Positions 748-16,398 of a stretch of 16,398 bases of DNA are shown here, piece by piece. The first letter of the stretch is position 1; each line of letters opens with the position of its first letter. The translations under genes were made by a program, and so were the position numbers. Under the pieces are notes generated by a model that was not told the origin of the DNA, ran no database searches, and saw only the letters and a program-made list of their open reading frames with translations. This stretch comes from Nitrospirae bacterium CG2_30_53_67. Its GTDB lineage: Bacteria; CG2-30-53-67. The stretch covers positions 1 through 16,398 of the forward strand of contig MNYV01000123.1 in assembly GCA_001873285.1 (NCBI GenBank), given 5' to 3'.

Positions 748-756
748 ATTTTTTTC

Positions 757-791
757 TTGACAAGGTAACACGAATAATATAATGGTAACAC
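757..791 (+). promoter_or_regulatory. Promoter with candidate NikR sites before the nickel operon
   Basis: TTGACA at 757-762 and TATAAT at 778-783 form a sigma70-type promoter with a short 15-nt spacer. Two exact GGTAACAC octamers at 764-771 and 784-791 lie in the spacer and just after the -10, 20 bp apart start to start, which places them on the same DNA face. The half-site resembles the GTAACAC half of the NikR operator reported for deltaproteobacteria, but here the copies are direct rather than inverted. Bound NikR would block polymerase. The link to NikR is inference. Confidence 0.6.
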
Positions 792-1644: not shown

Positions 1645-1645
1645 G

Positions 1646-3727: not shown

Positions 3728-3781
3728 GACAGAGTGACGGACATGGATTCATATGCAGTCGTGTAAGAGAGAATGATCAGA

Positions 3782-4996
3782 TCAGAACTGCCTATGGTAT
3801 TCCCTGACCTTCCTGGCAAAGTCCTTTCCGAATTCATAGCATCTCGATTCGTCTTCAGCGCCGGGCCTGTAGCGCACCTCAACTCCAGGCTCCACCATCT
3901 GAAGGCCCATTCTCTTTAACTCGGCATAGGCCTCTTTGACGCCGCCTCCGCCCCATCCGAAGCTCCCGAAGGCCCCGACGATCCTGTTTTTGGGCCTCAA
4001 CCCACGAAGGTGAGCGAGGAACTCGGCCACCGAAGGGAACATGATGTTGTTTAACGTGGGGGTTCCGAACAGAGATCCTCTCGCCTTCCAGAACTCCTTG
4101 ATGGCGATACTCATGGGAGTGGCCCTGAGCTTGATTACCTTGACCTCCATGTTTTCATCCTGGATCCCCTGCATCAAAGGCTGGGTCATGAGCGCTGTGC
4201 TCTTCCACATGGTGTCATAGATGATGACCACCCGTTCGTCCGCTCGGCCGCCGGCCATGTCCAGATACATGTTGATGATTTTTCCGGGGTCCGCCCTCCA
4301 GATGATTCCATGATCCGGGGCGATCATCTCGATCTTGAGCCCGAGCTTTTGGATCTCGGCGATCTTGGCCTTGATCAGGGAGCCGAAGGGCATGAGGATG
4401 TTCGCATAGTAGTCCTTGACCGAATCTTCGAGTTCATAGACCGAGTAACAGGTTAAGAATTCGTCGTCGAACCGGCCGGACGTGGCGTAATGCTGCCCGA
4501 AGGCGTCCTGGCTGATGAGAAGGCCGTCTTCCCTGACATAGGTCATCATGGAATCGGGCCAGTGGAGCATGGGTGTCTCCAGAAACATGAGGGTTTTCCT
4601 GCCGGTGTTCAGGGTATCCCCGCTCTTGACGATTTTGAAGGTCCAGCGCGATGTATCATAGCATCGGTCCAGCCCCTGCTTCCCTTTGGATGTAATAAAG
4701 ATGACGGCCTTGGGCGCAAGCTCCATGACCTTGTCCAGGCTGCCGGCATGGTCCGGTTCGATATGATTGATGATGACATACTCGATCTTGCCCGGATCAA
4801 CCATATTGCGGATATTCTCCAGCATCGTCTTTGAAAAGTTTTCCTTGACCGTGTCAATGAGCGTGACTTTTTCATCCAGGATAAGGTAGTTGTTGTAGGT
4901 GGTTCCGTTGGGGGTCACATAGCCGTGGAAATCCCTGACCCCCCAGTCAATGACGCCTACCCAGAAGATCCCCGGTTTGATTTCAGTTGATTTCAT
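3782..4996 (-). CDS. fprA: A-type flavo-diiron protein FprA (rubredoxin:oxygen/NO oxidoreductase)
   Basis: The 404 residues have the two-domain FprA layout. The beta-lactamase-like diiron domain carries the HxExD cluster at H78, E80, D82, then H145 (LHWPD), D164 (SQDAF) and H229 (APDHG), so all six iron ligands are in place. The flavodoxin domain begins near 255 with VVIIYDTMWKSTALM for FMN. The enzyme reduces O2 to water (and in some homologues NO to N2O) with electrons from rubredoxin, and protects anaerobes from oxygen. Two rubredoxins lie 2.5 kb away. No fused rubredoxin or flavin-reductase domain is present, so it is class A. A strong AGGGAGGT precedes the ATG, and hairpin repeat A with an extended -10 lies in its 5' region. 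Confidence 0.95.
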   Translation of the reverse strand: MKSTEIKPGIFWVGVIDWGVRDFHGYVTPNGTTYNNYLILDEKVTLIDTVKENFSKTMLENIRNMVDPGKIEYVIINHIEPDHAGSLDKVMELAPKAVIFITSKGKQGLDRCYDTSRWTFKIVKSGDTLNTGRKTLMFLETPMLHWPDSMMTYVREDGLLISQDAFGQHYATSGRFDDEFLTCYSVYELEDSVKDYYANILMPFGSLIKAKIAEIQKLGLKIEMIAPDHGIIWRADPGKIINMYLDMAGGRADERVVIIYDTMWKSTALMTQPLMQGIQDENMEVKVIKLRATPMSIAIKEFWKARGSLFGTPTLNNIMFPSVAEFLAHLRGLRPKNRIVGAFGSFGWGGGGVKEAYAELKRMGLQMVEPGVEVRYRPGAEDESRCYEFGKDFARKVREYHRQF

Positions 4997-5015
4997 GAAT
5001 ACCTCCCTTAGTTAT

Positions 5016-5021
5016 TTTATA
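5016..5021 (-). promoter_or_regulatory. Candidate extended -10 for fprA
   Basis: On the minus strand the sequence reads TTTTGATATAAA, giving an extended -10 (TG, one base, TATAAA) about 20 nt upstream of the ATG, between the hairpin repeat and the Shine-Dalgarno. No good -35 is visible, as expected for an extended -10. The implied leader would be very short. Confidence 0.4.
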
Positions 5022-5030
5022 TCAAAACTT

Positions 5031-5073
5031 AACCACAGAGAACACAGAGTCTTTCTCTCGGCACTCTGTGGTT
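5031..5073 (-). repeat. Nested hairpin repeat, copy A (upstream of fprA)
   Basis: Outer arms AACCACAGAG (5031-5040) and CTCTGTGGTT (5064-5073) are perfect 10-bp complements; inner CACAGAG/CTCTCG-type arms partly pair. Read on the minus strand, it matches copies B (7523-7563) and C (9999-10044), including the AAGACTCTGTGTTCTCTGTG core and a following (A)GGTTTTGAT-like stretch. Its near end is about 34 nt from the fprA ATG. Confidence 0.75.
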
Positions 5074-5157
5074 TCATCTCTCATGGAATGTAATATAAAG
5101 TTCCGGGACGTTCAAGAACTTTTTGTGCCTATCGCTGTTTCGGGGCCGGCCCTGAAG

Positions 5158-5186
5158 TTGACAGACGTCGGAAACATTATTAATAT
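5158..5186 (+). promoter_or_regulatory. Sigma70-like promoter upstream of the DHH gene
   Basis: TTGACA at 5158-5163 and TAATAT at 5181-5186 are spaced exactly 17 nt. This is the best consensus promoter in the 413-bp divergent region. It is about 224 bp from the DHH start and would give a long leader containing the inverted repeats at 5231-5265 and 5279-5314. Confidence 0.55.
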
Positions 5187-5230
5187 GTTAAAAATACCGT
5201 GACTTTTTGGGCCGCATGGGTGCGGGAAGC

Positions 5231-5327
5231 CGCTGATCAGGCTATAAATGATAATAATATCAGCGAGTTGTAAGTGTTTATTTATTTTTTTGATTTTTTT
5301 TGCAAAAATAAATATCAGTGGTATACT
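5231..5327 (+). promoter_or_regulatory. AT-rich leader with two inverted repeats and a second promoter
   Basis: The divergent gap between fprA and DHH (4997-5409) has no gene. CGCTGAT (5231-5237) pairs with ATCAGCG (5259-5265). An AT-only inverted repeat, TATTTATTTTT (5279-5289) with AAAAATAAATA (5304-5314), follows. TTTGCA (5299-5304) and TATACT (5322-5327), 17 nt apart, form a plausible proximal promoter for the DHH gene. The hairpins could be operators or a weak terminator of readthrough; their function is not known. Confidence 0.4.
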
Positions 5328-5409
5328 TTAAATCCTTTTCATTCGTACCACGGATTCAACGACTATTCACAGAACGGGGATAGAGAATGCTCATCATAGG
5401 TCGTTCTGA

Positions 5410-6420
5410 ATGACGGGGTTTCAAAAGAAAATCGAACTGCTGAAGAAGATGGTCGTTCCTTCCAGACGGGTACTGATTCTGACTCATGATAACCCGGACC
5501 CTGATGCCATTGCCGCCGCCTTCGGGTTTAAATATTTTCTCAAGGAGCAGTTCGGCCAGGAAAGCATCATCTCTTACGGCGGGATCGTGGGCCGCGCCGA
5601 GAATCAGTCGATGATCCAGCACCTCAAGATTCCCATGACCCCTGTAGATCAGATCCGTTTCCAGGATGATCTTTTCATGGTCCTGATGGATACTCAGCCC
5701 AGGACCGGGAACAACTCCCTCCCCGATACGGTCGTGCCGGACGTCGTGATCGACCACCACCCTCTTCGTGAGGAAACCAAGAAGGTCCCGTTTTCCGACG
5801 TGCGGGAAGAGGCCGGGTCGTGCTCCAGTATCATCACCTCTTATCTGAGGGAGGCCGGGATCGGGATCCAGCCGAGGCTGGCCACGGCGCTCTATTACGG
5901 GATCAAATCCGACACGAATGACTTTGGAAGGAACGCGGATGCCCTGGATCAGGAAAGTTATCTTTTTCTGTTTCCCAAGGTGCAGAGGGACATCCTGAAC
6001 CGGATCATCCATCCCAAGGTCTCGGCGGAGTATTTCAGGATATTAAACCGGGCGTTCAAGAAGGCCCGCATACACGGTTCGTCGTTGGTCACCTCCATCG
6101 GGCGGACCAGGAATCCGGACATGGTGGCCGAGGTCGCCGACATGCTCCTCCGTCATGAGGGTGTGGAATGGGTGCTGGTCATGGGGATCTTCCGGAAGGC
6201 CATGATCCTTTCCGTGCGGACGAGCGACATGCGGGGCGGCGCGGGAGACCTGGTGCAGGGCATGGTACGGGGCATGGGCAAGGCCGGAGGCCATGGGATG
6301 ATGGCCGGCGGCAAGATAGACATGAAGGATGGACTGAAGCAGGAACTGGAAGAGATGCTTCAGGAAAGGTTTCTGAAAAAGGTCGGGGATATCAACCAGC
6401 CCGCCGAGGCGCTGGTATAG
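5410..6420 (+). CDS. DHH/DHHA1 family phosphoesterase (NrnA-like)
   Basis: The 336-residue protein has the metal-binding DHH motifs THDNPDPDA (H26, D30, D32), MDTQP (D94) and VIDHHP (D115, H116, H117). The C-terminal DHHA1 motif GGHGMMAGG lies at about 294-302. Family members hydrolyse short RNA (nanoRNase), phosphoadenosine phosphate or cyclic dinucleotides; the sequence alone does not say which. The motifs that separate NrnA from GdpP-type enzymes (PAS and GGDEF domains) are absent, so a stand-alone cytoplasmic enzyme is likely. AGG at 5398-5400 precedes the ATG by 9 nt. The next gene starts 18 nt downstream, so the two are likely cotranscribed. Confidence 0.88.
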   Translation: MTGFQKKIELLKKMVVPSRRVLILTHDNPDPDAIAAAFGFKYFLKEQFGQESIISYGGIVGRAENQSMIQHLKIPMTPVDQIRFQDDLFMVLMDTQPRTGNNSLPDTVVPDVVIDHHPLREETKKVPFSDVREEAGSCSSIITSYLREAGIGIQPRLATALYYGIKSDTNDFGRNADALDQESYLFLFPKVQRDILNRIIHPKVSAEYFRILNRAFKKARIHGSSLVTSIGRTRNPDMVAEVADMLLRHEGVEWVLVMGIFRKAMILSVRTSDMRGGAGDLVQGMVRGMGKAGGHGMMAGGKIDMKDGLKQELEEMLQERFLKKVGDINQPAEALV

Positions 6421-6438
6421 ATTCAATCGGGATCCGGA

Positions 6439-6942
6439 ATGGACAAGGAATCGTTGGTTCAGATCATTCAGAGGGCCGTTCAGACCGAGAAGGACGGGAA
6501 CCTCTTTTACAGCCGTGCGGCCGGCGCCATCCGTGATCCCAAGGCAAAAAAGATGTTCGAGCTGTTGGCCAGGGACGAACTTTACCACGTGAAAATCATC
6601 GAGGATCTCTACCGGGACCTATTGACGGGCGGTAACATAGAGGCTGTAAAGGGCTATCCGATCTTTGAAAAAAGAGATGAGAACTTCAGGGAGGAGATCT
6701 CGAATTCCGGGAGCGAAGCAGATGTTCTTGAGCAGGCCATCGGAGATGAGATGGCGTCGAAAGATTTTTATCGGGAGGCGGCGGAGGTCCTGGAACCGGG
6801 GGAGGAGAAAGAAATCTTTCTGGATCTGATGGAGATGGAGGAAGGGCATATCCGGCTGCTGAAAGCGGAACTCGACTTCCTGAAAAAAACCGGAATCTAT
6901 TTTGATCCTACGGAATTCCCTGTAGAGGGTGAAAAGGAGTGA
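6439..6942 (+). CDS. Ferritin-like diiron protein (rubrerythrin family, no rubredoxin domain)
   Basis: The 167 residues form a four-helix ferritin-like bundle with the duplicated diiron pattern: E17, then E47-x2-H50 in the first pair, and E104, then E134-x2-H137 in the second pair. There is no C-terminal CxxC rubredoxin domain, so electrons must come from a separate donor such as the rubredoxins 0.4-0.7 kb downstream. Such proteins reduce hydrogen peroxide or sequester iron in anaerobes. It lies 18 nt after the DHH gene. The 160-bp gap that follows holds a small CCTCG-TTT-CGAGG hairpin at 6985-6997 with no T-run. Confidence 0.85.
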   Translation: MDKESLVQIIQRAVQTEKDGNLFYSRAAGAIRDPKAKKMFELLARDELYHVKIIEDLYRDLLTGGNIEAVKGYPIFEKRDENFREEISNSGSEADVLEQAIGDEMASKDFYREAAEVLEPGEEKEIFLDLMEMEEGHIRLLKAELDFLKKTGIYFDPTEFPVEGEKE

Positions 6943-7102
6943 TGCCCCAATAAACAAAGTGCTCCTCGGTCTTTTACGGCACAGCCTCGTTTCGAGGGGC
7001 GTGAAGGACGAGGTTCTCTGAGGTGGGATATTTCTTAAGTTACAGCCTGAGGTTTTTGGATTTTGAATCTATCCGGGTCAACAAAGCCATGAGGAGAAGG
7101 GT

Positions 7103-7315
7103 ATGAATTGTCCAAAATGCGGTGCGGCGAAGATGTCCATGGACAAGCCCGTCTATTTTAACGGGGACAATCATGAAGGGGATTTTCTTTATGCCGAAGA
7201 GATCCGCCGGTGCCGGATCTGCGGCAAGGTCGTCTTCGCCAAGAAAAATCTTAAGAAATCCAGAAAGAAGTTCATTAAAGGGCAGGTGATTACGGGAGGT
7301 TATGAAAACCTGTAA
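7103..7315 (+). CDS. Small zinc-ribbon protein
   Basis: This 70-residue protein has two CxxC knuckles, C3/C6 (CPKC) and C37/C40 (CRIC), in the spacing of a zinc ribbon, followed by a very basic tail (KKNLKKSRKKFIKG). GAGGAG at 7091-7096 is 6 nt from the ATG. The rubredoxin gene begins 21 nt downstream, suggesting one transcript. The knuckles could bind zinc or iron. The basic tail suggests nucleic-acid or partner binding. It resembles YgiT-like ribbons only in the metal site; I do not recognise a defined family. Confidence 0.75.
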   Translation: MNCPKCGAAKMSMDKPVYFNGDNHEGDFLYAEEIRRCRICGKVVFAKKNLKKSRKKFIKGQVITGGYENL

Positions 7316-7336
7316 TATCAAGATAAGGAGGGCAAA

Positions 7337-7498
7337 ATGAGAAAATGGAAGTGCACGGTCTGCGGCTATATCTACGATCCTGATGCAGGCGATCCTGACA
7401 GCGGAATCGCGGCTGGGACGGCCTTTGAAGATCTTCCGGATGATTGGCGCTGCCCGGTCTGCGGCGCCGCCAAGAGCGAGTTCGAACTGGAGGAATAA
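7337..7498 (+). CDS. Rubredoxin 1
   Basis: A 53-residue protein of exact rubredoxin size. The Fe(Cys)4 site is [11 protein letters not shown] (C6, C9) and RCPVCGA (C39, C42), with the conserved aromatic and DPDAGD loop. It carries single electrons, here most likely to FprA and the rubrerythrin-like proteins. AAGGAGG, 5-6 nt before the ATG, is the strongest Shine-Dalgarno in the cluster. This gene is below the usual ORF length cut-off. It is followed by hairpin repeat B and a second rubredoxin. Confidence 0.95.
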
Positions 7499-7522
7499 GG
7501 CCTGGGGTAGTCTTAAAAGCTG

Positions 7523-7563
7523 ACCACAGAGTGCACAGAGAAAGACTCTGTGTTCTCTGTGAT
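7523..7563 (+). repeat. Nested hairpin repeat, copy B (between the rubredoxins)
   Basis: A near-perfect nested palindrome: CACAGAG 7525-7531, TG, CACAGAG 7534-7540, loop AAAGA, CTCTGTG 7546-7552, TT, CTCTGTG 7555-7561. Only the 2-nt internal TG/TT bulge breaks the 16-nt arms. Its end is 43 nt before the rubredoxin 2 start. It is in the same orientation relative to the downstream gene as copies A and C. Confidence 0.85.
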
Positions 7564-7604
7564 TAGGTTTTAATAATGCGGGTCCGGGAAGAGGGGGAAC
7601 GGGA

Positions 7605-7763
7605 ATGAGAAGCTATCGATGCAGGATGTGTGATTACGTGTATGATCCGGATGAAGGGGACATGGACAGCGGGATTGAGCCCGGCACCTTGTTCGATGAA
7701 CTTCCCACAGCATGGGTCTGCCCCGCCTGCGGCGCCGGCCGGGAGGAATTCGAGAGGCTTTAG
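7605..7763 (+). CDS. Rubredoxin 2
   Basis: A 52-residue rubredoxin with [12 protein letters not shown] (C6, C9) and WVCPACGAG (C39, C42). It differs from rubredoxin 1 at many positions (for example MCD in place of VCG), so the two are diverged paralogues rather than a recent duplication. GAGGGGG at 7591-7597 is 7 nt from the ATG. Only 6 nt separate it from the acetolactate synthase gene, so the two form a transcription unit headed by hairpin repeat B. Confidence 0.94.
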
Positions 7764-7769
7764 GAAAAT

Positions 7770-9401
7770 ATGAAGTCATCAGAACTTTTTGTGAAGTGCC
7801 TGGAAAATGAAGGGGTCCGCTATATCTTCGGTCTGCCCGGCGAAGAGAATATGGATATCCTGGACGCCCTGTTTGACTCCCCGATTGAGTTTGTCTGCAC
7901 CCGCCAGGAACAGGGCGCGGCCTTCATGGCCGATGTTTACGGGAGGCTGACCGGCAAGGCGGGGGTATGTCTCGCGACCCTCGGGCCCGGCGCCACCAAC
8001 CTGATGACCGGCGTGGCGGATGCCTTCCTGGACCGGTCTCCCCTGGTGGCCATTACCGGGCAGACCGGCCGCGAACTCCTGCACAAGGAATCCCACCAGA
8101 ATATCGATATTGTCCAGACGTTCAAGCAGTTCACCAAATGGAACGCCAGGGTGGGAATCTCCCGGACCATTCCGGAAGTCGTCCGCAAGGCCTTCAAGGT
8201 CTCGGAAACCGAGAAACCCGGTCCCTGCCATATCGAGATCCCCGAAGATGTCGCCGCTGAAGAGGTCGAGGGCGAACCCCTTCCGGTCACCGGTTTCAAG
8301 CGGCCCCATACCGATCACATCGTTTGCAGGAAGGCGGCAGAGATTATCCAGCAGGCCAGGAGGCCTATTCTCCTTGCAGGGAACGGGGTCATCCGGGGGC
8401 GGGCCTCGGATGCGCTCCGGAAGTTTGTGGAGAAGACGAGGATTCCCGTGGCCAACACCTTCATGAGCAAAGGGGTGCTCCCGTCGGAAAGCGAGCTTTC
8501 CCTCTCGACCATCGGGCTTCAGTCCAGGGACTTCATTTCCTGCGGTTTCGACCGGGCCGACCTGATCATCTCCGTGGGATACGATTTCGTGGAATACGCC
8601 CCTTCCTTCTGGAACAGGGGGAAGAAGCCCGTGGTTCATATTGACTTTACGCCGAGTGAAATCGATGAGTATTATATCCCCCAGGTCGAGGTGATAGGAG
8701 ACATCGCCGCGAACCTGGCCAACATGATGAATGAAATCGAACCGATTGAGCAGGATGACTTCCCGAGGCTGCTCAAGACCATGGTGGAGGATGAACTCAA
8801 AGAGTACGCAGACGACGCATCCTTCCCCCTCAAGCCCCAGAAGATCCTTTACGACATCCGAAGGATCATGGGGAGAGAGGATATCCTGATCTCGGATGTG
8901 GGGGCGCACAAGATGTGGATTGCGAGGATCTATCCTGCTGAAGAACCCAATACCACGTTGATCTCCAATGGATTCGCCGCCATGGGATTCGCCCTCCCCG
9001 GCGCCGTCTGCGCCAAGCTGATTCACCCGGAAAGGAAGGTCCTCGCCGTCTGCGGAGACGGCGGTTTCCTGATGAGCAGCCATGAGTTGGAGACTGCGGT
9101 CCGGATGAAGCTCCCTTTTGTCATTCTGATCTTCAATGACGGGAAGTACGGCCTCATCGAATGGAAACAGATCAACCGATTCGGCCGAACCTACGGCGTC
9201 TCTTTCGGGAATCCCGACTTCGTACAGTTGGCGAGATCCTTCGGCGCGGCAGGATACCGCGTCCAGACGGCACAGGAACTCCATCCGGCGCTGAAAGAGG
9301 CGTTTGCGGCCAAGGTTCCCGCGGTCGTGGATGTCCCGGTGGACTATCGGGAGAATATCAATCTCACGGAGAAGCTGGGGAGGTTGATCTGTTATATATG
9401 A
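7770..9401 (+). CDS. alsS: Acetolactate synthase large subunit (ThDP-dependent, catabolic AlsS-like)
   Basis: The 543 residues have the three-domain ThDP fold. The catalytic Glu is E47 (TRQEQGAAFMADVYGR), followed by LATLGPGATNL. The metal/ThDP motif GDGGF near 430 continues to a distal ND (IFNDGKYG). HQNIDIVQTFKQFTKW and the PVDYRENINLTEKLG tail match acetolactate synthases of the AlsS type. The reaction joins two pyruvates to acetolactate and CO2. No ilvN small subunit follows, which favours a catabolic, feedback-insensitive enzyme over branched-chain biosynthesis. Its pairing with a rubredoxin is unusual. AGGA at 7762-7765 serves as the Shine-Dalgarno. Another ThDP decarboxylase activity cannot be excluded. 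Confidence 0.85.
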   Translation: MKSSELFVKCLENEGVRYIFGLPGEENMDILDALFDSPIEFVCTRQEQGAAFMADVYGRLTGKAGVCLATLGPGATNLMTGVADAFLDRSPLVAITGQTGRELLHKESHQNIDIVQTFKQFTKWNARVGISRTIPEVVRKAFKVSETEKPGPCHIEIPEDVAAEEVEGEPLPVTGFKRPHTDHIVCRKAAEIIQQARRPILLAGNGVIRGRASDALRKFVEKTRIPVANTFMSKGVLPSESELSLSTIGLQSRDFISCGFDRADLIISVGYDFVEYAPSFWNRGKKPVVHIDFTPSEIDEYYIPQVEVIGDIAANLANMMNEIEPIEQDDFPRLLKTMVEDELKEYADDASFPLKPQKILYDIRRIMGREDILISDVGAHKMWIARIYPAEEPNTTLISNGFAAMGFALPGAVCAKLIHPERKVLAVCGDGGFLMSSHELETAVRMKLPFVILIFNDGKYGLIEWKQINRFGRTYGVSFGNPDFVQLARSFGAAGYRVQTAQELHPALKEAFAAKVPAVVDVPVDYRENINLTEKLGRLICYI

Positions 9402-9420
9402 TCGTTTTATTGGTTCTCTG

Positions 9421-9446
9421 AAAGCCCGGTCCTTTGGGCCGGGTCA
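9421..9446 (+). terminator. GC-rich hairpin after acetolactate synthase
   Basis: CCCGGTCC (9425-9432), TTT loop, GGGCCGGG (9436-9443) form an 8-bp stem with one G-U pair, 20 nt after the stop. No U-tract follows, so it is either a weak intrinsic terminator or an RNA-stabilising hairpin. Confidence 0.45.
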
Positions 9447-9478
9447 GAGTTGAAAGGCTGTGCCGTGTTATTTCGTGG

Positions 9479-9710
9479 GAAAATTCGAAATTCGAAGCAC
9501 TAAATCCTAAACAAATTCGAATGACCGAAATCCAAAATTCAAGACTTATTTATCCAAATGTTGCATCATCACGTGTAGAATTGAAGCTTGCGAAATAGAT
9601 TCTCTCATGCACGATTTAGGTACAATATACAGATATAGACGAGGTTTTAAACATTTGAATTTTGAGTTTAGGATTTGTTTAGGATTTAGATTTTAGGATT
9701 TCGTATTTTC
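9479..9710. repeat. 232-bp inverted-repeat element (MITE-like)
   Basis: The left arm from 9479 (GAAAATTCGAAAT, then TAAATCCTAAACAAAT, then CAAAATTCAA) is matched in reverse complement by the right arm ending at 9710 (GAAAATACGAAAT, then TAAATCCTAAACAAAT, then CAAAATTCAA). Each arm is about 60 nt and imperfect, enclosing about 100 nt without an ORF. Base composition is far more AT-rich than the flanking genes. It fills most of the 408-bp gap 9402-9809. A non-autonomous mobile element or structured repeat is likely; no target duplication was resolved. Confidence 0.6.
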
Positions 9711-9713
9711 TAC

Positions 9714-9786
9714 AAGACGCAAGGGAAACCCCTTCCAGGGGTAACACAAAGCTACGTCCTCTGGGCGTGGATGTTTACTTGAACCC
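9714..9786 (+). promoter_or_regulatory. Structured leader resembling a cyclic-di-GMP-I (GEMM) riboswitch
   Basis: The segment reads GGGAAACC, then hairpin ACCCCT-TCC-AGGGGT (9728-9742), then AACACAAAGCTACG, then hairpin ACGTCC-TCT-GGGCGT (9754-9768). The GEMM-I core is GGCAAACC, hairpin, then ACGCAAAGCYACG; the second block matches 12 of 13. AAAC near 9727 can pair with GTTT near 9773 as the closing helix. TCCTCT (9757-9762) can also pair with AGAGGA (9800-9805) in the ferredoxin Shine-Dalgarno, giving a plausible on/off switch. The 3' half is degenerate, so this is a candidate only. Confidence 0.4.
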
Positions 9787-9809
9787 TTTAATCTATAGGA
9801 GAGGAAACT

Positions 9810-9983
9810 ATGCCACACAAGATTACCGATGAATGCATTCTCTGCGGCGCCTGTCTCCCTGAATGTCCCGAAGAGGCGATCTCCGAGGGGGATCCCAAGT
9901 ACATCATTGATCCGAAAAAATGCTCGGATTGCGGAAACTGCGCAGAGGTCTGCCCGACTGATGCCTGTGTTCCGGACGAATGA
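9810..9983 (+). CDS. 2[4Fe-4S] ferredoxin
   Basis: A 57-residue clostridial-type ferredoxin with two clusters: C9-x2-C12-x2-C15-x3-C19P and C38-x2-C41-x2-C44-x3-C48P. Length and spacing are canonical, with an acidic surface. It is a low-potential electron carrier in the cytoplasm, here probably feeding the oxygen and peroxide defence enzymes or pyruvate metabolism. AGGAGAGG ends 3 nt before the ATG region and is complementary to the leader at 9757-9762. The gene is too short for standard ORF cut-offs. Hairpin repeat C lies between it and the rubrerythrin-like gene. Confidence 0.94.
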   Translation: MPHKITDECILCGACLPECPEEAISEGDPKYIIDPKKCSDCGNCAEVCPTDACVPDE

Positions 9984-9998
9984 GACATGTCAAAAGCT

Positions 9999-10044
9999 AA
10001 CCACAGAGTGCACAGAGAAATACTCTGTTCTCTGCGGTCAGGTT
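9999..10044 (+). repeat. Nested hairpin repeat, copy C (upstream of rubrerythrin)
   Basis: AACCACAGAG-TG-CACAGAG, loop AAATA, CTCTG-TT-CTCTGCGG, then TCAGGTT. This matches copy B except for two lost inner bases and an A-C mismatch in the outer stem. It ends about 36-43 nt before the rubrerythrin ATG at 10080. Confidence 0.75.
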
Positions 10045-10079
10045 CTGATCATACAAGAGGAAGAATAAGGAGAACGGCC

Positions 10080-10562
10080 ATGATACGAGGAGATGAGGAT
10101 ATTGCCGAAGGTCTTCTGAATGCCTTCCGGCTTGAAAAAGGGGCCCATGCGTTCTATGAGGCTGCATCCGAGCGCGTACAGGACAGGAGCGCCGTGGAGA
10201 TGTTCAGAAAGCTTGCCGACGTCGAAGAGAGGCATATGCACGACGTCTACGATCTCTATCATGCCTTTATCGGGGACCGCGGTCCGGTTCCTTTTCCGGA
10301 GTTCAAAGAAAAGATGCCTGCCGAATACACCGAGAGCGGCAAGACCATCGAGGCTGCGCTATCGGACGTGCAGGGCCGCTTCTTCATGGACGCGAAGGAG
10401 GTTCTGCGCGTGGCCCTGCAGGAGGAGAGTTCGGCCCTGGACCTCTACACCCGGATGGCGGAACGTTCCGAGGACCCCGGCACGGCCGCGCTCTACAGGC
10501 AGCTTAGCGGCGAGGAGGAGGAGCACAAAAGCATGATCGAGAAGACACTCAAGGGGCTTTAA
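10080..10562 (+). CDS. Rubrerythrin-like ferritin-fold diiron protein
   Basis: The 160 residues start at ATG 10080, chosen because AAGGAGA (10067-10073) is 6 nt upstream. The longer open frame from 9987 runs through hairpin repeat C and is not a credible N-terminus. Diiron ligands are E19 (RLEKGAHAFY), E49-x2-H52, then E116 (QEESSALDLY) and E146-x2-H149. It lacks a rubredoxin domain, so peroxide reduction would depend on a separate rubredoxin or ferredoxin. It shares the fold with the protein at 6439-6942 but is clearly diverged. A peroxidase role fits the context; iron storage or a sulfur-related role is possible. Confidence 0.82.
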   Translation: MIRGDEDIAEGLLNAFRLEKGAHAFYEAASERVQDRSAVEMFRKLADVEERHMHDVYDLYHAFIGDRGPVPFPEFKEKMPAEYTESGKTIEAALSDVQGRFFMDAKEVLRVALQEESSALDLYTRMAERSEDPGTAALYRQLSGEEEEHKSMIEKTLKGL

Positions 10563-10593
10563 TCAAGGATTATCTCCAAAAGAATGGGTGAGA

Positions 10594-10829
10594 ACATAAG
10601 GGTCCAAGGGTTCAAGGGTTCCAGGGGTCAAGTGAAGTGCTTTTCAATACTTGAGGGTCCGAGGGGCCAAGGGTTCAAGGGGTCAAGTGAAGTGCTTTTC
10701 AATACTTGAGGGTCCGAGGGGCCAAGGGTTCAAGTGAAGTGCTAAAAATAACATAAGGGGCCGAGGGTTCTAGTGTTTTTCTCTGGAGATTTTACTTGAG
10801 TTTAAGTATTTCACTGGACCCCTTGACCC
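10594..10829. repeat. 55-bp tandem repeat and inverted relative
   Basis: The unit starting GGGGTCAAGTGAAGTGC begins at 10624 and again at 10679 (period 55). AAGTGAAGTGC appears a third time at 10732 in a shortened unit of 47. Each unit contains CAATACTTGAGGGTCCGAGG. The far side (about 10792-10829), TTTACTTGAGTTTAAGTATT then CCCCTTGACCCC, is an inverted relative, so the block can fold back on itself. With the 48-bp repeat at 10945-10992 it fills the gap 10563-11001, which holds no gene. Confidence 0.75.
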
Positions 10830-10944
10830 CAAGATACCTCAGTGTAGTAGCCGTCGCAGACGGTCCCGGCCCGGCAAGAATAGATTCAAGTAGATGCCGG
10901 GATCTAACGACAAAAATAGAGAAAAGCGGGGCACGCGAAGCGTA

Positions 10945-10992
10945 ACCCTGGAATCCTCGAACCCTTTTACCCCACTATGTGGGAGAAGAACC
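10945..10992. repeat. 48-bp intergenic repeat, copy 2
   Basis: This matches 184-231 in the same orientation, from ACCCTGGAATCCTCGAACCC to GAACC. It lies just before the Isf-like gene. An apparent N-terminal extension of that gene runs through it, which argues against an upstream start. Confidence 0.7.
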
Positions 10993-11001
10993 TTAATTAA
11001 A

Positions 11002-11613
11002 GTGAGACCATTGTATATCCTGGGGCTATCAGGAAGTCCGAGGCGCCATGCCAACTCCGAGACCCTTCTGGACCAGGTCCTGAGCGGGGCATCCGAGGCA
11101 GGCGCCGAAACCGGGAAGATCATCGCCTCGGGTTTCCAAAATCTTCGCCCCTGCGTGAACTGCGGAGATTGCCTGAAGACCGGCCGGTGCCGCGTCCAGG
11201 ATGAGATGCAGGAGATCTATCCCATGCTCGACCGGGCTGACGGACTGGTGGTGGCCTCTCCGATCTACTTCATGGGGGTCTCCGCCTTTCTGAAAATCAT
11301 CATCGACCGATGTCAATGCTACTGGTCACGCAAATATGTTCTCAAAGAGCCGCTCTTTCCCGAAGACCCCAAACGGATCCGCAAGGGGCTCTTTCTTGCA
11401 ACCGCCGGCCATGACAAACCCGTGGTCTTCCAGGGGGCCAGGATGACGGTTCGAGCCCTGTTTGATGTTCTGGATGTTTCTTACCTGGGCGAATATTTCG
11501 CAACACGCATGGAGAAGCCCAGGGATATTCTTGATGTGGAAGGGGCCATGAGTTCCGTCCACGACATGGGAAAGCGGCTGGTGGAGGAACTGAAAGGGCT
11601 GCCCCATGAATGA
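11002..11613 (+). CDS. Iron-sulfur flavoprotein (Isf-like), NAD(P)H-dependent FMN reductase family
   Basis: The start is GTG 11002 (203 residues) or TTG 11011, which has GTGAGA 5 nt upstream. An ATG at 10894 would translate the intergenic repeat. The flavodoxin-like fold begins LYILGLSGSPRRHANSETLL (FMN phosphate loop) and contains ASPIYFMGVSAFLKIIIDR. The compact motif C51-x2-C54-x2-C57-x5-C63 (CVNCGDCLKTGRC) is the CX2CX2CX5C signature of Isf, which binds a [4Fe-4S] cluster. Archaeal Isf accepts electrons from ferredoxin and reduces O2 and H2O2, which fits the ferredoxin and rubrerythrin upstream. It overlaps the methyltransferase gene by 8 nt. Confidence 0.82.
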   Translation: MRPLYILGLSGSPRRHANSETLLDQVLSGASEAGAETGKIIASGFQNLRPCVNCGDCLKTGRCRVQDEMQEIYPMLDRADGLVVASPIYFMGVSAFLKIIIDRCQCYWSRKYVLKEPLFPEDPKRIRKGLFLATAGHDKPVVFQGARMTVRALFDVLDVSYLGEYFATRMEKPRDILDVEGAMSSVHDMGKRLVEELKGLPHE

Positions 11614-12166
11614 AGCGGACCGGATACGCTGGGACAAAAAGTACAATGACAAAGAGCCGCCTCAGGAGATCGCGCCCGATTCTTTCCTGGTCCGGAGCAT
11701 CAAGGGGATCCGGCCGGGCCGTGCCCTCGACCTCGGATGCGGTTTCGGAGACAATGCCATCACCCTGGCCGGTGCCGGCTTCGAGGTGACGGCCGTGGAT
11801 ATTTCCCAGGTCGGCCTGAAGCGTGCAGTGGAGCGGGCCCGGAAGGCCGGGGTCTCGGTCCTGTTTCAACAAAGCGATGCCGAGGACTTTGATTTCGGGG
11901 ATCAGGTCTATGATTTGATCACCTCTTTTTATTTTATGAACCGGGCCATCTTTCCCCGTATCAAGAAGTCGCTGAAACCCGGCGGAATCTTTCTCTACAA
12001 GACCTATACCGTGGACGAACTCCGTTACCGTCCCGAGCTGAACAGGGCCTATCTTCTGGAGCATGATGAGTTGAAGACCCTGTTCGAGGATTTTGAGATC
12101 CTGTTAAATGACGAGAGGGATACAGGAACAGAATGTTCGGTCCGCTTTTTAGCCAGGCGTCCATAA
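11606..12166 (+). CDS. Class I SAM-dependent methyltransferase (TehB-like)
   Basis: The 186 residues have a Rossmann methyltransferase core: motif I ALDLGCGFG (40-48), acidic end of strand 2 at D65 (VTAVDIS), motif II around QQSDAEDFDF, and post-motif ITSFYFMNRAIFPRIKKSLKPGGIFLY. It is short and single-domain, like TehB and thiopurine-type methyltransferases, which act on small, often toxic, molecules such as tellurite or selenite. The substrate cannot be read from sequence. The 8-nt overlap with the Isf-like gene implies coupled translation and possibly a shared detoxification role. Confidence 0.85.
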   Translation: MNEADRIRWDKKYNDKEPPQEIAPDSFLVRSIKGIRPGRALDLGCGFGDNAITLAGAGFEVTAVDISQVGLKRAVERARKAGVSVLFQQSDAEDFDFGDQVYDLITSFYFMNRAIFPRIKKSLKPGGIFLYKTYTVDELRYRPELNRAYLLEHDELKTLFEDFEILLNDERDTGTECSVRFLARRP

Positions 12167-12169
12167 AAA

Positions 12170-12420
12170 TCAAAAAACTCCCTCTCCATCGAGGGACTGT
12201 GTCACAATTATGGAGATTCAGTTCCTTTGGGGACAAGGTTTAGGGCAATCAATAAATTTCCTCTCCCCGTGAATGGGGAGAGGGCAAGGGTGAGGGGTTG
12301 ACCGGAAAGAGCCCCCCTCATCCTCACCTTCTCCCCAAAAGGGAGAAGGAACATAAGGAAGAGATCAAGATTACGACACAGCCTCCGAGGGAGAGAGTGG
12401 GGGTGAGGGTGTCGGTTCAC
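12170..12420. repeat. Mosaic hairpin element between methyltransferase and aspartase
   Basis: The 282-bp gap holds three perfect hairpins: TCCCTC/GAGGGA (12179-12196), CCTCTCCCC/GGGGAGAGG (12260-12283) and CCTTCTCCC/GGGAGAAGG (12327-12349). It also carries the outer inverted pair CTGTGTCACAAT near 12197 and ATTACGACACAG near 12370. The G-rich and C-rich strands of the two middle hairpins can also pair with each other. The CCCTCACCC-type composition is typical of bacterial mosaic intergenic repeats. The first hairpin may end the methyltransferase transcript, but no T-run follows it. Confidence 0.6.
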
Positions 12421-12448
12421 TCGATAGAGTAAAGAGGGCAAAAGATTG

Positions 12449-13864
12449 ATGGATTCCGGAGGCTCGATAAAGAAGACAAGAGTCGAGGAGGATTCCCTGG
12501 GAGAGAAGGCGGTCCCGTCCTCTGCGTACTACGGCATCCAGACGGCGCGGGCCCTGGAGAATTTTCCGGTGAGCGGCACGCGGGCCCATCCTCTTCTCGT
12601 CCGGGCCTATGTCCTGATCAAAAAGGCCGCGGCCCTGACCCATGAACAGCTTTCTTTACTGGAGCCTGCGATTGCACAGGCGATTGTGCAGGCCGCCGAC
12701 GAGGCGCTGAACGGGAAACTGGCGGACCAGTTCGTGGTGGATGTGTTCCAGGCCGGGGCAGGGACCTCCTTCAACATGAATGTGAACGAGGTGCTAACCA
12801 ACCGGGCGCTGGAAATCCTGGGGGACACCCGCGGGAACTACAAACGGGTCAGCCCCAATGACCATGTGAACCTCTCGCAGTCCACCAACGACACCTTCCC
12901 CACGGCCATGCATGTCGCCTCGCTTCTCATGCTGCGGGAGCTGCTTCCGGTTCTGGCGCGGCTCTCCCTGTCTCTGGAAGACAAGGGCAAAGAGTTCTCG
13001 GACGTGATCAAGTCCGGCAGGACCCATCTGCAGGATGCCGTCCCCGTGACCCTGGGGCAGGAGTTTTCGGCCTATGCCGTATGCATCCGCAAATCCATCA
13101 AGGCCCTCCAATCATGCCGGCCCTCGCTTGAAGAACTTCCCATCGGAGGGAGTGCGGCCGGTACCGGGCTGAATGTCCCCGCCGGATACCGCGAAGAGAT
13201 GGTTCGAAGGCTGAGCGAAATGACCGTTCTTTCCCTCCGGCCCGCGGCGGACCTGAGAGAGGCCATGCAGAGCCGGGCCGCGATCTCTGCGCTCTCCTCC
13301 ATGCTCCGGAATCTTTGCCTGGACCTGATCCGGATCGCGAATGACCTGCGCCTCCTGAGCTCCGGTCCACGCACCGGATTCGCCGAGATCAGCCTCCCGG
13401 CAGTTCAGCCCGGCTCCTCGATCATGCCCGGCAAGGTCAACCCGAGTCTGGCCGAGTGCCTGAACATGGTCTGTTTCCAGGTTATGGGCAATGATCTGGT
13501 CATCGCCATGGCCTCGCAGTCCGGACAGCTCGAACTCAACGTCATGATGCCCGTGATGATCCACAACCTTCTCCAGTCCATGGAGATCCTGAAGAACTTT
13601 GTCCCGGTCTTTGCCGAAAAATGCGTGGCCGGGATCACGGCCCACAGAGAACGCTGCCGGTCGTACTTTGAGAAAAGCCTGGGACTGGCCACGATCCTGA
13701 ACCCCCATATCGGATATCTCAACGCCTCACAACTGGCCAAGGAGTCGGAAGAGAAAGGTATCCCTATCCGGGATCTGATCCTGAAAAAAGGGCTTCTCTC
13801 TCCGGAGGAACTCGACCTGATTCTCGATCCCGACCGGATCACGGGCCAGGATCAATCAATTTAA
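12449..13864 (+). CDS. aspA: Aspartate ammonia-lyase
   Basis: This 471-residue protein belongs to the fumarase/aspartase superfamily. Conserved blocks in order are SQSTNDTFPTAM, GRTHLQDAVPVTLGQEF, GTGLNVP and the catalytic serine loop GSSIMPGKVNP at about 322-332. The C-terminal half (GNDLVIAMASQSGQLELNVMMP and NPHIGYLNASQLA) matches aspartases better than fumarase C, which typically has ALTPKLGYD-type endings. It converts L-aspartate to fumarate and ammonia. ATG 12449 is preceded by GAGGG at 12434-12438; the TTG at 12446 is an alternative. It appears to be a single-gene unit. Class II fumarase is the alternative call, less likely. Confidence 0.85.
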   Translation: MDSGGSIKKTRVEEDSLGEKAVPSSAYYGIQTARALENFPVSGTRAHPLLVRAYVLIKKAAALTHEQLSLLEPAIAQAIVQAADEALNGKLADQFVVDVFQAGAGTSFNMNVNEVLTNRALEILGDTRGNYKRVSPNDHVNLSQSTNDTFPTAMHVASLLMLRELLPVLARLSLSLEDKGKEFSDVIKSGRTHLQDAVPVTLGQEFSAYAVCIRKSIKALQSCRPSLEELPIGGSAAGTGLNVPAGYREEMVRRLSEMTVLSLRPAADLREAMQSRAAISALSSMLRNLCLDLIRIANDLRLLSSGPRTGFAEISLPAVQPGSSIMPGKVNPSLAECLNMVCFQVMGNDLVIAMASQSGQLELNVMMPVMIHNLLQSMEILKNFVPVFAEKCVAGITAHRERCRSYFEKSLGLATILNPHIGYLNASQLAKESEEKGIPIRDLILKKGLLSPEELDLILDPDRITGQDQSI

Positions 13865-13880
13865 GATCTGTCTTTTCCCT

Positions 13881-13909
13881 TTGCTTTCGCATCCGTTCCC
13901 TCGTATAAT
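13881..13909 (+). promoter_or_regulatory. Repeated promoter cassette P1 (ORF6N)
   Basis: TTGCTT (13881-13886), 17 nt, TATAAT (13904-13909). The -10 sits at the start of a 58-bp block (13901-13958) that recurs at 15560-15617 with 52 of 58 identical bases, including GGACGGCTTGTGCG. The leader before ORF6N is about 145 nt and has no convincing gene. Confidence 0.6.
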
Positions 13910-14053
13910 CCCCGCAGTTAACTGACATTGGACGGCTTGTGCGGCACTCTCTGAATGATTGCCTGCCCTGAGTGCAGCCGTCATCTTACAACAACATCGC
14001 GCCCCAGCCCGCATCAATCATCCCGAAAAATACGGCGCGCCTCAGGAGGAGAT

Positions 14054-14605
14054 ATGCCCATGGAAAAGAATCTTATCCCACAAGACGCCATTGAACAGAA
14101 AATCTTCTTGATACGAGGCCAGAAGGTCATGATCGACAGAGATCTTGCAGAGCTTTATGGGGTACTAACCAAGGTGCTCTTGCAGGCAGTCAAGCGGAAC
14201 CTCAGGCGCTTTCCGTCTGACTTTATGTTTCTTCTTACATTTCAAGAGTTTAAAAACTTGAGGTCACAAATTGTGACCTCAAGTTCATGGGGTGGTCGCC
14301 GCTACCATCCCTATGCCTTTACCGAACAAGGCGTGGCCATGCTCTCCAGCGTGTTAAATAGTGACCGGGCGATCGAAGTGAATATCCAGATCATACGGGC
14401 GTTTGTCAAACTACGGGAGATGATCGCGTCACACAAGGACTTGGCGAAAAAGCTCGACGAACTTGAGAAGAAGTACGACACCCAGTTCAGGGTTGTCTTT
14501 GATGCAATCAGAGAGTTGATGAAACCTCCGGCACCGCGTCGAAAGAAAATCGGCTTCCTCGCCAAAGAACCCAGACCCGAATACAAGGCGGCACGCCCCC
14601 GTTAG
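14054..14605 (+). CDS. ORF6N (KilA-N-related) domain DNA-binding protein
   Basis: The start ATG 14054 (or 14060) follows AGGAGGA; the frame is open from 13955, but that part lies in the repeated promoter leader. The 183 residues carry the ORF6N domain at about 12-100: [42 protein letters not shown] and [12 protein letters not shown] coiled-coil helix (about 115-155) and a basic tail follow. ORF6N proteins are phage- and mobile-element-associated DNA binders of unclear role. The coding region contains a perfect 31-bp palindrome. The 3' end ([15 protein letters not shown]) is duplicated at 15897-15944, showing a second, eroded copy. Confidence 0.87.
14255..14285. promoter_or_regulatory. Perfect 31-bp palindrome inside the ORF6N gene
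   Basis: AACTTGAGGTCACAA (14255-14269), a central A, and TTGTGACCTCAAGTT (14271-14285) are exact complements with no mismatch. It covers the codons for the conserved [10 protein letters not shown] motif. It could be an intragenic operator bound by a dimer, such as ORF6N itself, or an mRNA hairpin that limits translation. Confidence 0.6.
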
Positions 14606-14690
14606 ACGCATGGCGCGTAACGGGGCTTAAATCCCCCTTTGGCAAAGGGGGATGCAGGGGGATTTTTGAATGCTGTCCTTCGTCCTCTGC
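14558..14690. repeat. Palindromic repeat REP, copy 1 (includes ORF6N tail)
   Basis: The block starts in the last ORF6N codons. It continues through hairpin CCCCGTTA/TAACGGGG around a GACGCATGGCGC core, then ATCCCCCTTT (14631-14640) with AAAGGGGGAT (14644-14653), then GCAGGGGGATTTTTGAATGCTGTCCTTCG (part of a longer shared run). Copies recur at 15897-16023 and 16096-16151. It may double as the ORF6N terminator. Confidence 0.75.
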
Positions 14691-14720
14691 TGGTTTCCCG
14701 CTGCTCCGTTCCCGGCGTTC

Positions 14721-14744
14721 CAAATATTTCCCCAAATATTTCCC
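14721..14744 (+). repeat. Tandem 12-bp duplication upstream of the MNT promoter
   Basis: CAAATATTTCCC occurs twice, back to back, at 14721-14732 and 14733-14744, ending at the base before the -35 TTGACA. The AAATATTT cores suggest an UP element or activator site in helical register with the promoter. Confidence 0.6.
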
Positions 14745-14781
14745 TTGACAGAGTTATGCCAAAGGCATAAGATCTTATGCC
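14745..14781 (+). promoter_or_regulatory. Promoter and palindromic operator of the MNT gene
   Basis: TTGACA (14745-14750), 17 nt, TAAGAT (14768-14773). Three half-sites overlap it: TTATGCC 14754-14760, GGCATAA 14764-14770 and TTATGCC 14775-14781. The last two make a perfect 18-bp palindrome centred on GATC that covers the -10, and the first two make a 17-bp palindrome over the spacer. Such a layout suggests tight autorepression, plausibly by the helix-turn-helix N-terminus of the gene product. Confidence 0.65.
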
Positions 14782-14789
14782 TCACGTCC

Positions 14790-15356
14790 ATGAGGTGCGT
14801 CGTGTTCTCCGAGAACCAATTGAGACTTCTTGCCTTACTTATGAGCCAGCCGGACAAGGAATATTACCTCAGTGAACTGGGGGAGATCCTCGGGAAGAGG
14901 CCCGGCATCTTTCAGCGCGGCATCAACTCTTTGGACGATCAGGGCATTGTGATCAGCAGGCGAAGAGGCAACCTCAGGCTCTTCACCATCAACCGTCAGC
15001 ATGCCTTGTACCCGGAGATCAAACGCATCGTGGAGAAGACGGTCGGCATAGAGGGGCTGTTGCGCAAGGTTGTCCAGGACCTGAAGGAGGTTACGATGGC
15101 CTTAATCTATGGCTCCTATGCCAGGGACGTCATGCGGACGGATTCGGATATCGATCTTGCCGTGGTCGGAAAGGCCGCTGTAGAAGCAAAACTCCTCAGG
15201 CAACTCAAAAAAGTTGAGAGAGCCATTGACCGGGAAGTCAACTTCAAGCTCTATACAAAAAAGGAATTTATCGAGCGAATGGAAAAAAGTGACCCTTTCC
15301 TGGCCGAGATCCTTTCAGACAAATACATTCTCCTCAAAGGAGACTTGAATGTTTGA
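14790..15356 (+). CDS. MNT-type nucleotidyltransferase with N-terminal winged helix (antitoxin-like)
   Basis: From ATG 14790 the protein has 188 residues; GTG 14802 with GAGG 6 nt upstream is an equally good start. An ATG at 14670 would begin before the promoter. Residues 5-70 form a winged-helix domain (ENQLRLLALLMSQ, YYLSELGEILG). A minimal nucleotidyltransferase domain follows, with GSYARDVMRTDSDIDL, fitting GSx10DxD (G108, S109, D120, D122). In MNT-HEPN modules this enzyme adds nucleotides to the HEPN toxin and neutralises it. The HEPN start codon overlaps its stop by 8 nt. The operator palindrome suggests it represses its own promoter. Confidence 0.85.
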   Translation: MRCVVFSENQLRLLALLMSQPDKEYYLSELGEILGKRPGIFQRGINSLDDQGIVISRRRGNLRLFTINRQHALYPEIKRIVEKTVGIEGLLRKVVQDLKEVTMALIYGSYARDVMRTDSDIDLAVVGKAAVEAKLLRQLKKVERAIDREVNFKLYTKKEFIERMEKSDPFLAEILSDKYILLKGDLNV

Positions 15357-15510
15357 ACCCTACCTCAAGAAAGGTCTCCTCAAGAATTCGATTCAATCCA
15401 CGACCCAAACCGAAGCAAAGAATGCTTTCAAAATCGCAAAGGTCATCCTCAACAAGATTGAGGAAATTCTGTGCCGCGATAATCCCCAGTTGAGGTTAGA
15501 TGTGGATTAA
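15349..15510 (+). pseudogene. Internally deleted HEPN toxin partner
   Basis: A 53-codon frame starts at an ATG overlapping the MNT stop by 8 nt. Residues 1-12 (MFEPYLKKGLLK) are the typical HEPN N-terminus. Residues 13-53 (STTQTEAKNAFKIAKVILNKIEEIL, which continues to DNPQL) match the usual C-terminal helix. The middle, about 80-90 residues with the catalytic Rx4-6H motif, is missing. The junction lies around 15385-15395 and keeps the reading frame. Full-length partners are about 130-150 residues. The product should lack RNase activity, so the toxin is dead while the antitoxin gene remains intact. Confidence 0.7.
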
Positions 15511-15539
15511 TGGACTCTTTCCGGCCTCCTGTTTTCTCC

Positions 15540-15568
15540 TTGCCTCCCTCCCCATTTCTTCGTATAAT
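15540..15568 (+). promoter_or_regulatory. Repeated promoter cassette P2
   Basis: TTGCCT (15540-15545), 17 nt, TATAAT (15563-15568), at the head of the second copy of the 58-bp block (15560-15617). It drives the small zinc-ribbon gene, whose GAGGAAGG Shine-Dalgarno follows the block. Confidence 0.6.
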
Positions 15569-15629
15569 CCCCATAGTTACCTGACATCGGACGGCTTGTG
15601 CGACACTCTCTAAATGAGGAAGGCGATCC

Positions 15630-15809
15630 ATGCCAAGCGAGTTTTGCACAATATGCAAAAAGATTACAAACACGGTCGTAACCGTCATGCCGCGGATCAT
15701 CACCGGCCCGGACGGGAAGGTGGAAACGATTACGGTCAAGACGTATCATTGCGAATCCTGCCGATCATTTATGCGCAGTGAGGAGACAGGCCGGTGCATC
15801 GTGACATAA
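15630..15809 (+). CDS. Small zinc-ribbon hypothetical protein
   Basis: This 59-residue frame starts at ATG 15630 with GAGGAAGG about 6-8 nt upstream and is below usual ORF length limits. Two knuckles, C6-x2-C9 (CTIC) and C41-x2-C44 (CESC), flank a beta-rich middle with a GPDGK turn. The end is SFMRSEETGRC. The ordered spacing, the good ribosome binding site and the adjacent promoter argue for a real gene. No function is known to me; single-ribbon proteins of this type often bind nucleic acid or act as small adaptors. Confidence 0.65.
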   Translation: MPSEFCTICKKITNTVVTVMPRIITGPDGKVETITVKTYHCESCRSFMRSEETGRCIVT

Positions 15810-15875
15810 AATTCATCAGGTGCACTGTGCCCTCTGTGGCAAGAGAAGCAGTTCGCTTTTTATGGAGTAAAAATC

Positions 15876-15944
15876 AAGAGGAAAGACTTGGTTCCTCTCG
15901 CCAAAGAACCCAAACCCGAGTACAAGGCGGCACGCTCCCGTTAG
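15876..15944 (+). pseudogene. 3' tail of a second ORF6N gene
   Basis: The frame KRKDLVPLAKEPKPEYKAARSR-stop repeats the C-terminus of the intact ORF6N protein ([22 protein letters not shown]-stop), and the DNA identity runs on into the REP element. Nothing of the ORF6N domain itself precedes it; 15810-15875 shows no recognisable gene. It is a relic of a duplicated ORF6N-REP unit. Confidence 0.7.
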
Positions 15945-16023
15945 ACGCATTGCGTGGGGCTTAAGTCCCCCTTTGACAAAGGGGGATGCAGGGGGATTTT
16001 TGAATGCTGTCCTTCGTCCTCTG
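15897..16023. repeat. Palindromic repeat REP, copy 2
   Basis: Matches copy 1 from the ORF6N tail codons through TCCCCCTTT (15966-15974) and AAAGGGGGA (15978-15986) to the CCTTCGTCCTCTG end. It has a reduced first hairpin (GACGCATTGCGT). It runs directly into promoter cassette P3. With P3 and REP copy 3 it fills 15945-16151, which has no gene. Confidence 0.75.
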
Positions 16024-16037
16024 TCCTCTGTTTTCGC

Positions 16038-16066
16038 TTGTTTTCACGCCCATTCTTTCGTATAAT
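16038..16066 (+). promoter_or_regulatory. Repeated promoter cassette P3
   Basis: TTGTTT (16038-16043), 17 nt, TATAAT (16061-16066), with the TTTCGTATAATCC context of P1 and P2. The downstream sequence differs from the 58-bp block and carries no gene before REP copy 3. Confidence 0.5.
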
Positions 16067-16095
16067 CCGCTCAGCCACCGGGTTCAAATCGGTAC

Positions 16096-16151
16096 GCCCT
16101 GCCTTATTAGACGCATGGCGCGTAACAGGGCTTAAATCCCCCTTTGGCAAA
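16096..16151. repeat. Palindromic repeat REP, copy 3, interrupted
   Basis: TTAGACGCATGGCGCGTAAC and AAATCCCCCTTTGGCAAA match copy 1, but the sequence switches after 16151 to the end of an insertion sequence. The flanking stem here is GCCCTG/CAGGGC in place of CCCCG/CGGGG, as if the pairing were kept by compensating changes. Confidence 0.7.
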
Positions 16152-16398
16152 CTGACCCTTACCCATAACCTGGGTTGCTGGACACAGGGGGGCTTTGAAG
16201 ATGTGGCGCATGAGTCCGGGTCAACAATTTCCACATGGCGGTGAGGTCGTCCAGACGTTGCAACCCCAACCAGAGACTTTGTGTGCCGGGCTCACCATCT
16301 CCCTTCCGGCCGAGAAAGCCGCCGAGCCGGGCCGCCATGCGCGTGGCCTCACGCAGCGTCGGCTCCGCCTCCGGAGGTCTCGGATCTTGAGTCATATA
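16152..16398 (-). mobile_element. End of an IS4-family insertion sequence
   Basis: The element end at 16152 reads CTGACCCTTACCCATAAC, similar to the IS50/Tn5 outer end (CTGACTCTTATACACAAG). The transposase C-terminus is read inward from it on the minus strand. The other end and the 9-bp target duplication expected for this group lie outside the window. Confidence 0.7.
16159..16398 (-). CDS. IS4-family (IS50-like) transposase, C-terminal part
   Basis: Seventy-nine residues are open to the window edge, so the N-terminal catalytic domain lies outside; the Met at 16395 is probably internal. The sequence TLREATRMAARLGGFLGRKGDGEPG followed by LWLGLQRLDDLTAMWKLL (part of a longer run) is the characteristic C-terminal end of Tn5-like IS4 transposases. 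The protein would cut and paste the element through its terminal repeats. The last about 18 residues (from RTHAPHLQ) are not conserved and run into the terminal repeat. Confidence 0.82.
   Translation of the reverse strand, partial: YMTQDPRPPEAEPTLREATRMAARLGGFLGRKGDGEPGTQSLWLGLQRLDDLTAMWKLLTRTHAPHLQSPPVSSNPGYG

Follow-up and report, generated by a model that had tools for sequence, protein, structure and literature searches.

A covarying palindrome at one fixed place inside ORF6N coding sequences of many phyla

A 27-bp palindrome with the core CA-NNN-TG is present at the same place in nearly all of 182 ORF6N genes of many phyla, and it is neither an occurrence by chance nor a by-product of the protein motif encoded there. 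From comparison of the sequences, we tentatively consider it a DNA-level cis element that belongs to the ORF6N gene, is probably a binding site of the encoded protein, and is most likely autoregulatory.

The palindrome and its host gene in the window

The first case lies in a contig of Nitrospirae bacterium CG2_30_53_67 (GenBank GCA_001873285.1, MNYV01000123.1), of which positions 1 to 16,398, the whole stretch of DNA analysed, are called the window. A perfect 31-bp palindrome without strand, AACTTGAGGTCACAA-A-TTGTGACCTCAAGTT, occupies 14255-14285 inside the ORF6N gene, which confirms the original prediction of two 15-nt arms around one base: in the inverted-repeat search the arms (14255-14269 and 14271-14285) are 100% complementary with a 1-nt spacer, and this is the sole fully complementary inverted repeat among the matches listed (arms of at least 12 nt, within 60 nt). 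The family-conserved palindromic part covers 14257-14283 (27 bp, 13 positions on either side of the centre) and the near-invariant core CA-NNN-TG covers 14267-14273, with a free central triplet at 14269-14271 that is AAT in the window. The codons under the palindrome are AAC TTG AGG TCA CAA ATT GTG ACC TCA AGT. Folded as single-stranded DNA, it is predicted to form a 14-bp stem with a triloop (-14.3 kcal/mol, z -7.1). Low odds of such a repeat arising by chance in coding DNA had also been proposed, and this is borne out: the palindrome scores 14 vs a maximum of 12 in random synonymous recodings of its peptide, i.e., 0/20,000 recodings reached the observed score.

No second copy was found in the 2.36-Mb genome, even with three mismatches allowed, nor was there one among the candidates scored in this genome by a covariance model. 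A high-copy repeat was ruled out by the few copies per genome, and an intrinsic terminator was rejected, the palindrome lying within an open reading frame with no T tract. Rfam gave no known RNA family at the palindrome; its sole match is elsewhere and at chance level.

The host gene (14054-14605, plus strand; Pfam PF10543, PADLOC, and an AlphaFold model) encodes an ORF6N-domain protein of 183 amino acids, with the domain at 14096-14353 on the same strand. The match to PF10543 (E 2e-35, 121.3 bits, curated cut-off 27.8) makes the protein a member of the ORF6N family; a weak Rha match was the only other one in the Pfam scan, which gave no Y1 (HUH) transposase. The PADLOC scan matched models of the phage-defence candidate PDC-S05 only (E 3e-62), and none of BstA. 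No significant sequence match to a solved homologue was obtained, and the fold search gave non-significant matches only, led by the DNA-binding fold of Dachshund/Ski. Residues 68-77, which the palindrome encodes, form in the AlphaFold model the last part of a helix and the first part of a loop modelled with locally low confidence; amino-acid change may be tolerated here.

Several other features were seen around the gene. Window positions 13873-13958 are repeated at 15532-15617 and 14558-14689 at 15897-16023, 16107-16151 is also part of the repeats, and the fragment 15897-15943 matches the ORF6N 3' end; the repeats 3' of the gene are apparently a decayed second ORF6N cassette with its middle replaced. 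A nucleotidyltransferase gene (Polbeta, PADLOC PDC-M05A) is followed by an apparent short broken HEPN-type remnant, recognized by eye (14796-15510 for both), and the two are possibly a decayed toxin-antitoxin or defence pair. Past the ORF6N stop, at about 14630-14652, there is a REP-like hairpin, ATCCCCCTTTGGCAAAGGGGGAT, with a near-repeat 1.3 kb further on (15965-15987), and it resembles the one after the ORF6N gene of a sister genome (L083). Further away, 10607-10777 holds three imperfect overlapping copies of a 69-nt repeat rich in AGGGGTCAAGTG, spaced by 55 and 47 nt.

Conservation and compensation in ORF6N and Bro-N genes

ORF6N homologues were drawn from genome contigs, the window's phylum, viral contigs, and plasmids, and further ones from the phylum of a Bacteroidota genome and the phylum of a Gammaproteobacteria genome; 61 of 243 unique matches had no protein anchors and were left out, and the 182 genes with both anchors were scored. 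Across 167 distinct sites, positions 2-13 from the centre are Watson-Crick paired in 140-166 (84-99%), pairing at position 14 drops to about 45% (77/167), and the centre triplet is free. Please note that a pairing figure of 98.6% from another alignment is biased, because its rows had been selected for good pairing; the site counts, the codon null, and the parsimony counts given here are free of this selection. At almost all positions several pair types occur, e.g., AT 96, GC 34, and CG 28 at position 4. As a codon null, each loop was recoded according to the codon usage of its own gene; of 176 distinct loops, 168 score above this null at p<0.05 and 162 do so at p<0.01, with a mean score of 10.9 vs 3.4. 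Parsimony on a protein tree from which the loop was excluded, used without support values, gave about 249 inferred double compensatory changes vs about 106 pairing losses. Whether compensating changes keep the arms complementary in other ORF6N genes had been named as the check on the palindrome; they clearly do, and the opposite pattern, the same amino acids with complementarity not conserved, is not what the ORF6N homologues show.

The palindrome depends neither on particular amino acids nor on one reading frame. Residues are coupled through the arms, i.e., SQ-V (TCA..GTGA), SQ-A (TCG..GCGA), CQ-G (TGC..GGCA), and FQ-G (TTC..GGAA), and at 15 of the 167 sites a one-base shift puts the palindrome in another frame, where it encodes EVVANCDHL, ELVTNWHRF, ELITICDKL, and similar peptides. 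Some genes have an extra codon ahead of it (SRSQFVTLK), and in some ORF6N genes two palindromes stand in tandem (L071, L120). Third-position GC is 0.46 inside the palindrome and 0.77 outside where the GC3 of the gene exceeds 0.7. A coincidence or a by-product of the conserved protein motif could be argued from LRSQxVTS being part of the ORF6N family consensus; however, with the codon nulls exceeded, other amino acids in the other frame, and a GC3 decoupled from that of the gene, this explanation retains practically no probability. Because relatives change both arms together, even altering the protein, the DNA itself is probably functional on top of the protein code.

DinD-like genes of the Bro-N family (PF02498) have a palindrome ahead of the ADGK motif, with the core ACANNNTGT and quite different covarying arms, and the codon null is exceeded at p<0.05 in 57 of 60 genes. 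These palindromes were seen at loci L319-L323, L329-L331, and L396-L463; none was found in E. coli dinD. We infer that the ORF6N and Bro-N sites are structurally equivalent. The Rha family was tried as an outgroup and dropped, with too few separate matches, which were the same ORF6N genes.

Further copies and genomic distribution

Palindromes flanking 180 ORF6N loci number 74 vs 5 expected from shuffles, some of them ordinary terminator-like hairpins. Those that have the same CA-NNN-TG core, with different arms, are concentrated in the 200 nt ahead of the domain start and the 100 nt downstream of the stop. On plasmids of Bacteroides finegoldii and Segatella hominis a copy immediately precedes the ORF6N start, and on a plasmid of Legionella oakridgensis one directly follows the ORF6N stop. 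Arms are shared between flanking and internal copies in 17 of 37 cases at position 4 vs 14.3 expected (P 0.2), i.e., the half-site common to all sites of a locus that would mark an autoregulatory operator was not found, and neither was any relaxation of the internal copy where flanking copies exist.

The covariance model was run on 33 genomes, with up to 150 candidates scored per genome. Among the model matches listed for ORF6N-bearing genomes there are 62 sites, 48 inside an ORF6N domain, seven within 300 nt of one, and seven elsewhere, and at least 36 of 44 full-length ORF6N domains have a match. In 14 ORF6N-less Bacteroidota genomes the one match among those listed is a terminator hairpin, and in genomes of the window's own phylum the element occurs only in the two with intact ORF6N domains.

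Two other observations were made on distribution. Genome G135, which has many ORF6N genes, shows adjacent palindromes between genes with no ORF6N nearby (L297 at 1637 and 1676, L298 at about 1704). In phage contigs (e.g., L091, L092, L097, L102, L104, and L112), where 31 stretches matched the pattern, the core AGGTCACAAWTTGTGACCT often has a stop codon a short way ahead of it and a T tract behind it, in the manner of an intrinsic terminator; such exact-core sequences were rejected as relatives, many being intrinsic terminators and few lying in or at ORF6N genes.

Possible function and alternative explanations

The original prediction left three readings side by side, i.e., an intragenic operator for self-control, an element recognition site, and an mRNA hairpin. 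The coupled arm changes favour a DNA element linked to the gene. A hairpin acting on translation or mRNA stability is conceivable in that a stem of 12-14 bp would form in untranslated mRNA and some copies are found a short distance outside the gene, on one side or the other, where the mRNA is likely untranslated; G.U pairs, however, ought to be favoured in an RNA stem of the coding strand, and the mismatches at ORF6N sites are 27 G.T vs 40 A.C (synonymous opportunities give an expected G.T share of 0.475; p 0.27), while at positions 3-14 of the Bro-N sites A.C outnumbers G.T by 19 to 3. Because there is no G.U excess, the RNA hairpin is not supported, and we regard it as quite improbable. How the arms stay matched is another matter. 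Loop triplets are about as frequent as their reverse complements (AAT 64/ATT 50, TTT 14/AAA 13, ATC 6/GAT 6, AAC 3/GTT 3), and their reversal changes the encoded amino acids. Template switching between the arms of inverted repeats homogenizes arms and inverts spacers in coding DNA (PMC8604942, PMC8794818), and since these are its known outcomes, template-switch correction probably contributes to the complementarity. The same outcomes would suit a purely mutational account, in which an old inverted repeat confers no benefit and owes its perfection to template switching, but this leaves unexplained why the palindrome is confined to ORF6N and Bro-N genes, why its core is conserved, why further copies lie beside ORF6N genes, and why it is nearly absent from ORF6N-less genomes, and we assign this account a low probability.

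For an autoregulatory cis element, the following picture may be drawn. The ORF6N protein, or a complex containing it, would recognize the palindrome at its own locus, through the region around CA-NNN-TG and the self-complementary form (a dyad, or an extruded or single-strand hairpin), and sites within the gene and immediately to either side of it would control ORF6N expression. Template-switch correction during replication would help to keep the arms complementary and flip the loop; because the arms are re-matched in this way and selection keeps the core, the arms could drift together with the core held. Autoregulation is in keeping with the clustering of palindromes around the gene. The seven model matches away from any ORF6N domain in ORF6N-bearing genomes count against it, as does the internal copy being no more relaxed where flanking copies exist, and since the copies of a locus differ in their arms, recognition of a single exact half-site by each protein is disfavoured. 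Intragenic operators of autoregulated bacterial genes (purR, galE) are dyad sites with a fixed half-site; the ORF6N palindrome is like them a dyad in or near the controlled coding region, whereas its arms vary and are complementary over 12 bp. A bolder version, which we hold to be rather doubtful, is that ORF6N and Bro-N proteins recognize a self-complementary DNA structure that is obligatory in their own coding sequence as a tag of self, with pairing rather than base identity as the signal that would drive the coupled amino-acid changes.

By analogy with BstA, self-immunity would also be conceivable: ORF6N would act against phages, and the palindrome in its own gene would suppress it on the carrier replicon. 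BstA is an abortive-infection protein with a KilA-N-like domain, and its aba is an intragenic DNA self-immunity element of 63 bp at the gene start, with cognate specificity and a requirement for terminal direct CCCGCC repeats, which is nowhere described there as a palindrome or inverted repeat (PMC8585504). The two share a DNA-based element inside the gene of a defence protein or candidate with a phage-type DNA-binding domain, and the PDC-S05 match of the host protein, the intragenic placement, and the DNA-level nature of the palindrome are in line with it. The ORF6N element is, in contrast, a 27-bp covarying palindrome in mid-domain whose arms differ within one locus where BstA-aba pairs are cognate; moreover, the defence activity of ORF6N is a database prediction only and ORF6N genes are widespread in chromosomal contigs, so that we find this explanation rather unlikely. 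Less likely still seems a mobile or selfish palindromic element with ORF6N as its preferred host or helper gene, in the manner of Rickettsia palindromic elements or of REP with RAYT. In its favour are flanking and tandem copies whose arms differ (L273, L266, L071, L120), the G135 copies between unrelated genes, the second reading frame, and loops in both orientations; against it stand the fixed position in nearly every ORF6N gene of distant phyla, the low number of copies in a genome, most of them located at ORF6N loci, and the fact that ORF6N is, to our knowledge, not a known transposase. Rickettsia palindromic elements share with our case palindromic DNA read in frame within proteins; they are longer and dispersed among unrelated genes of a single genus, whereas the ORF6N and Bro-N palindromes are short and sit at one position in two related families of many phyla; insertions in many unrelated genes were not seen, 55 of the 62 listed model sites falling inside ORF6N domains or no more than 300 nt away. 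The REP/RAYT likeness lies in hairpins that are found close to a gene family and are missing wherever it is missing, the difference in few copies, no Y1 transposase, and arms that are not shared.

Coding palindromes are also known within many mitochondrial genes of four nematomorph species, likewise inverted repeats overlaid on the protein code, whereas the ORF6N palindrome is a fixed site across bacterial phyla (PMC6649704). No earlier description of the ORF6N palindrome was found in the literature searched, which lies outside most subscription journals, and a prior report is possible; one publication mentions both ORF6N and a palindrome.

The ORF6N family, made up of predicted phage-type regulators and defence candidates, is widespread and has hardly been studied. 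At one fixed place its genes carry a second code, at the level of the DNA, which compensatory change has maintained across phyla, and such a code is also present in a second, related family, Bro-N. The pairing of the DNA imposes amino-acid covariation on the proteins, which is a trap for protein coevolution methods and for profile motifs, and the palindrome offers a concrete candidate DNA ligand with which the function of ORF6N and Bro-N proteins may be probed.
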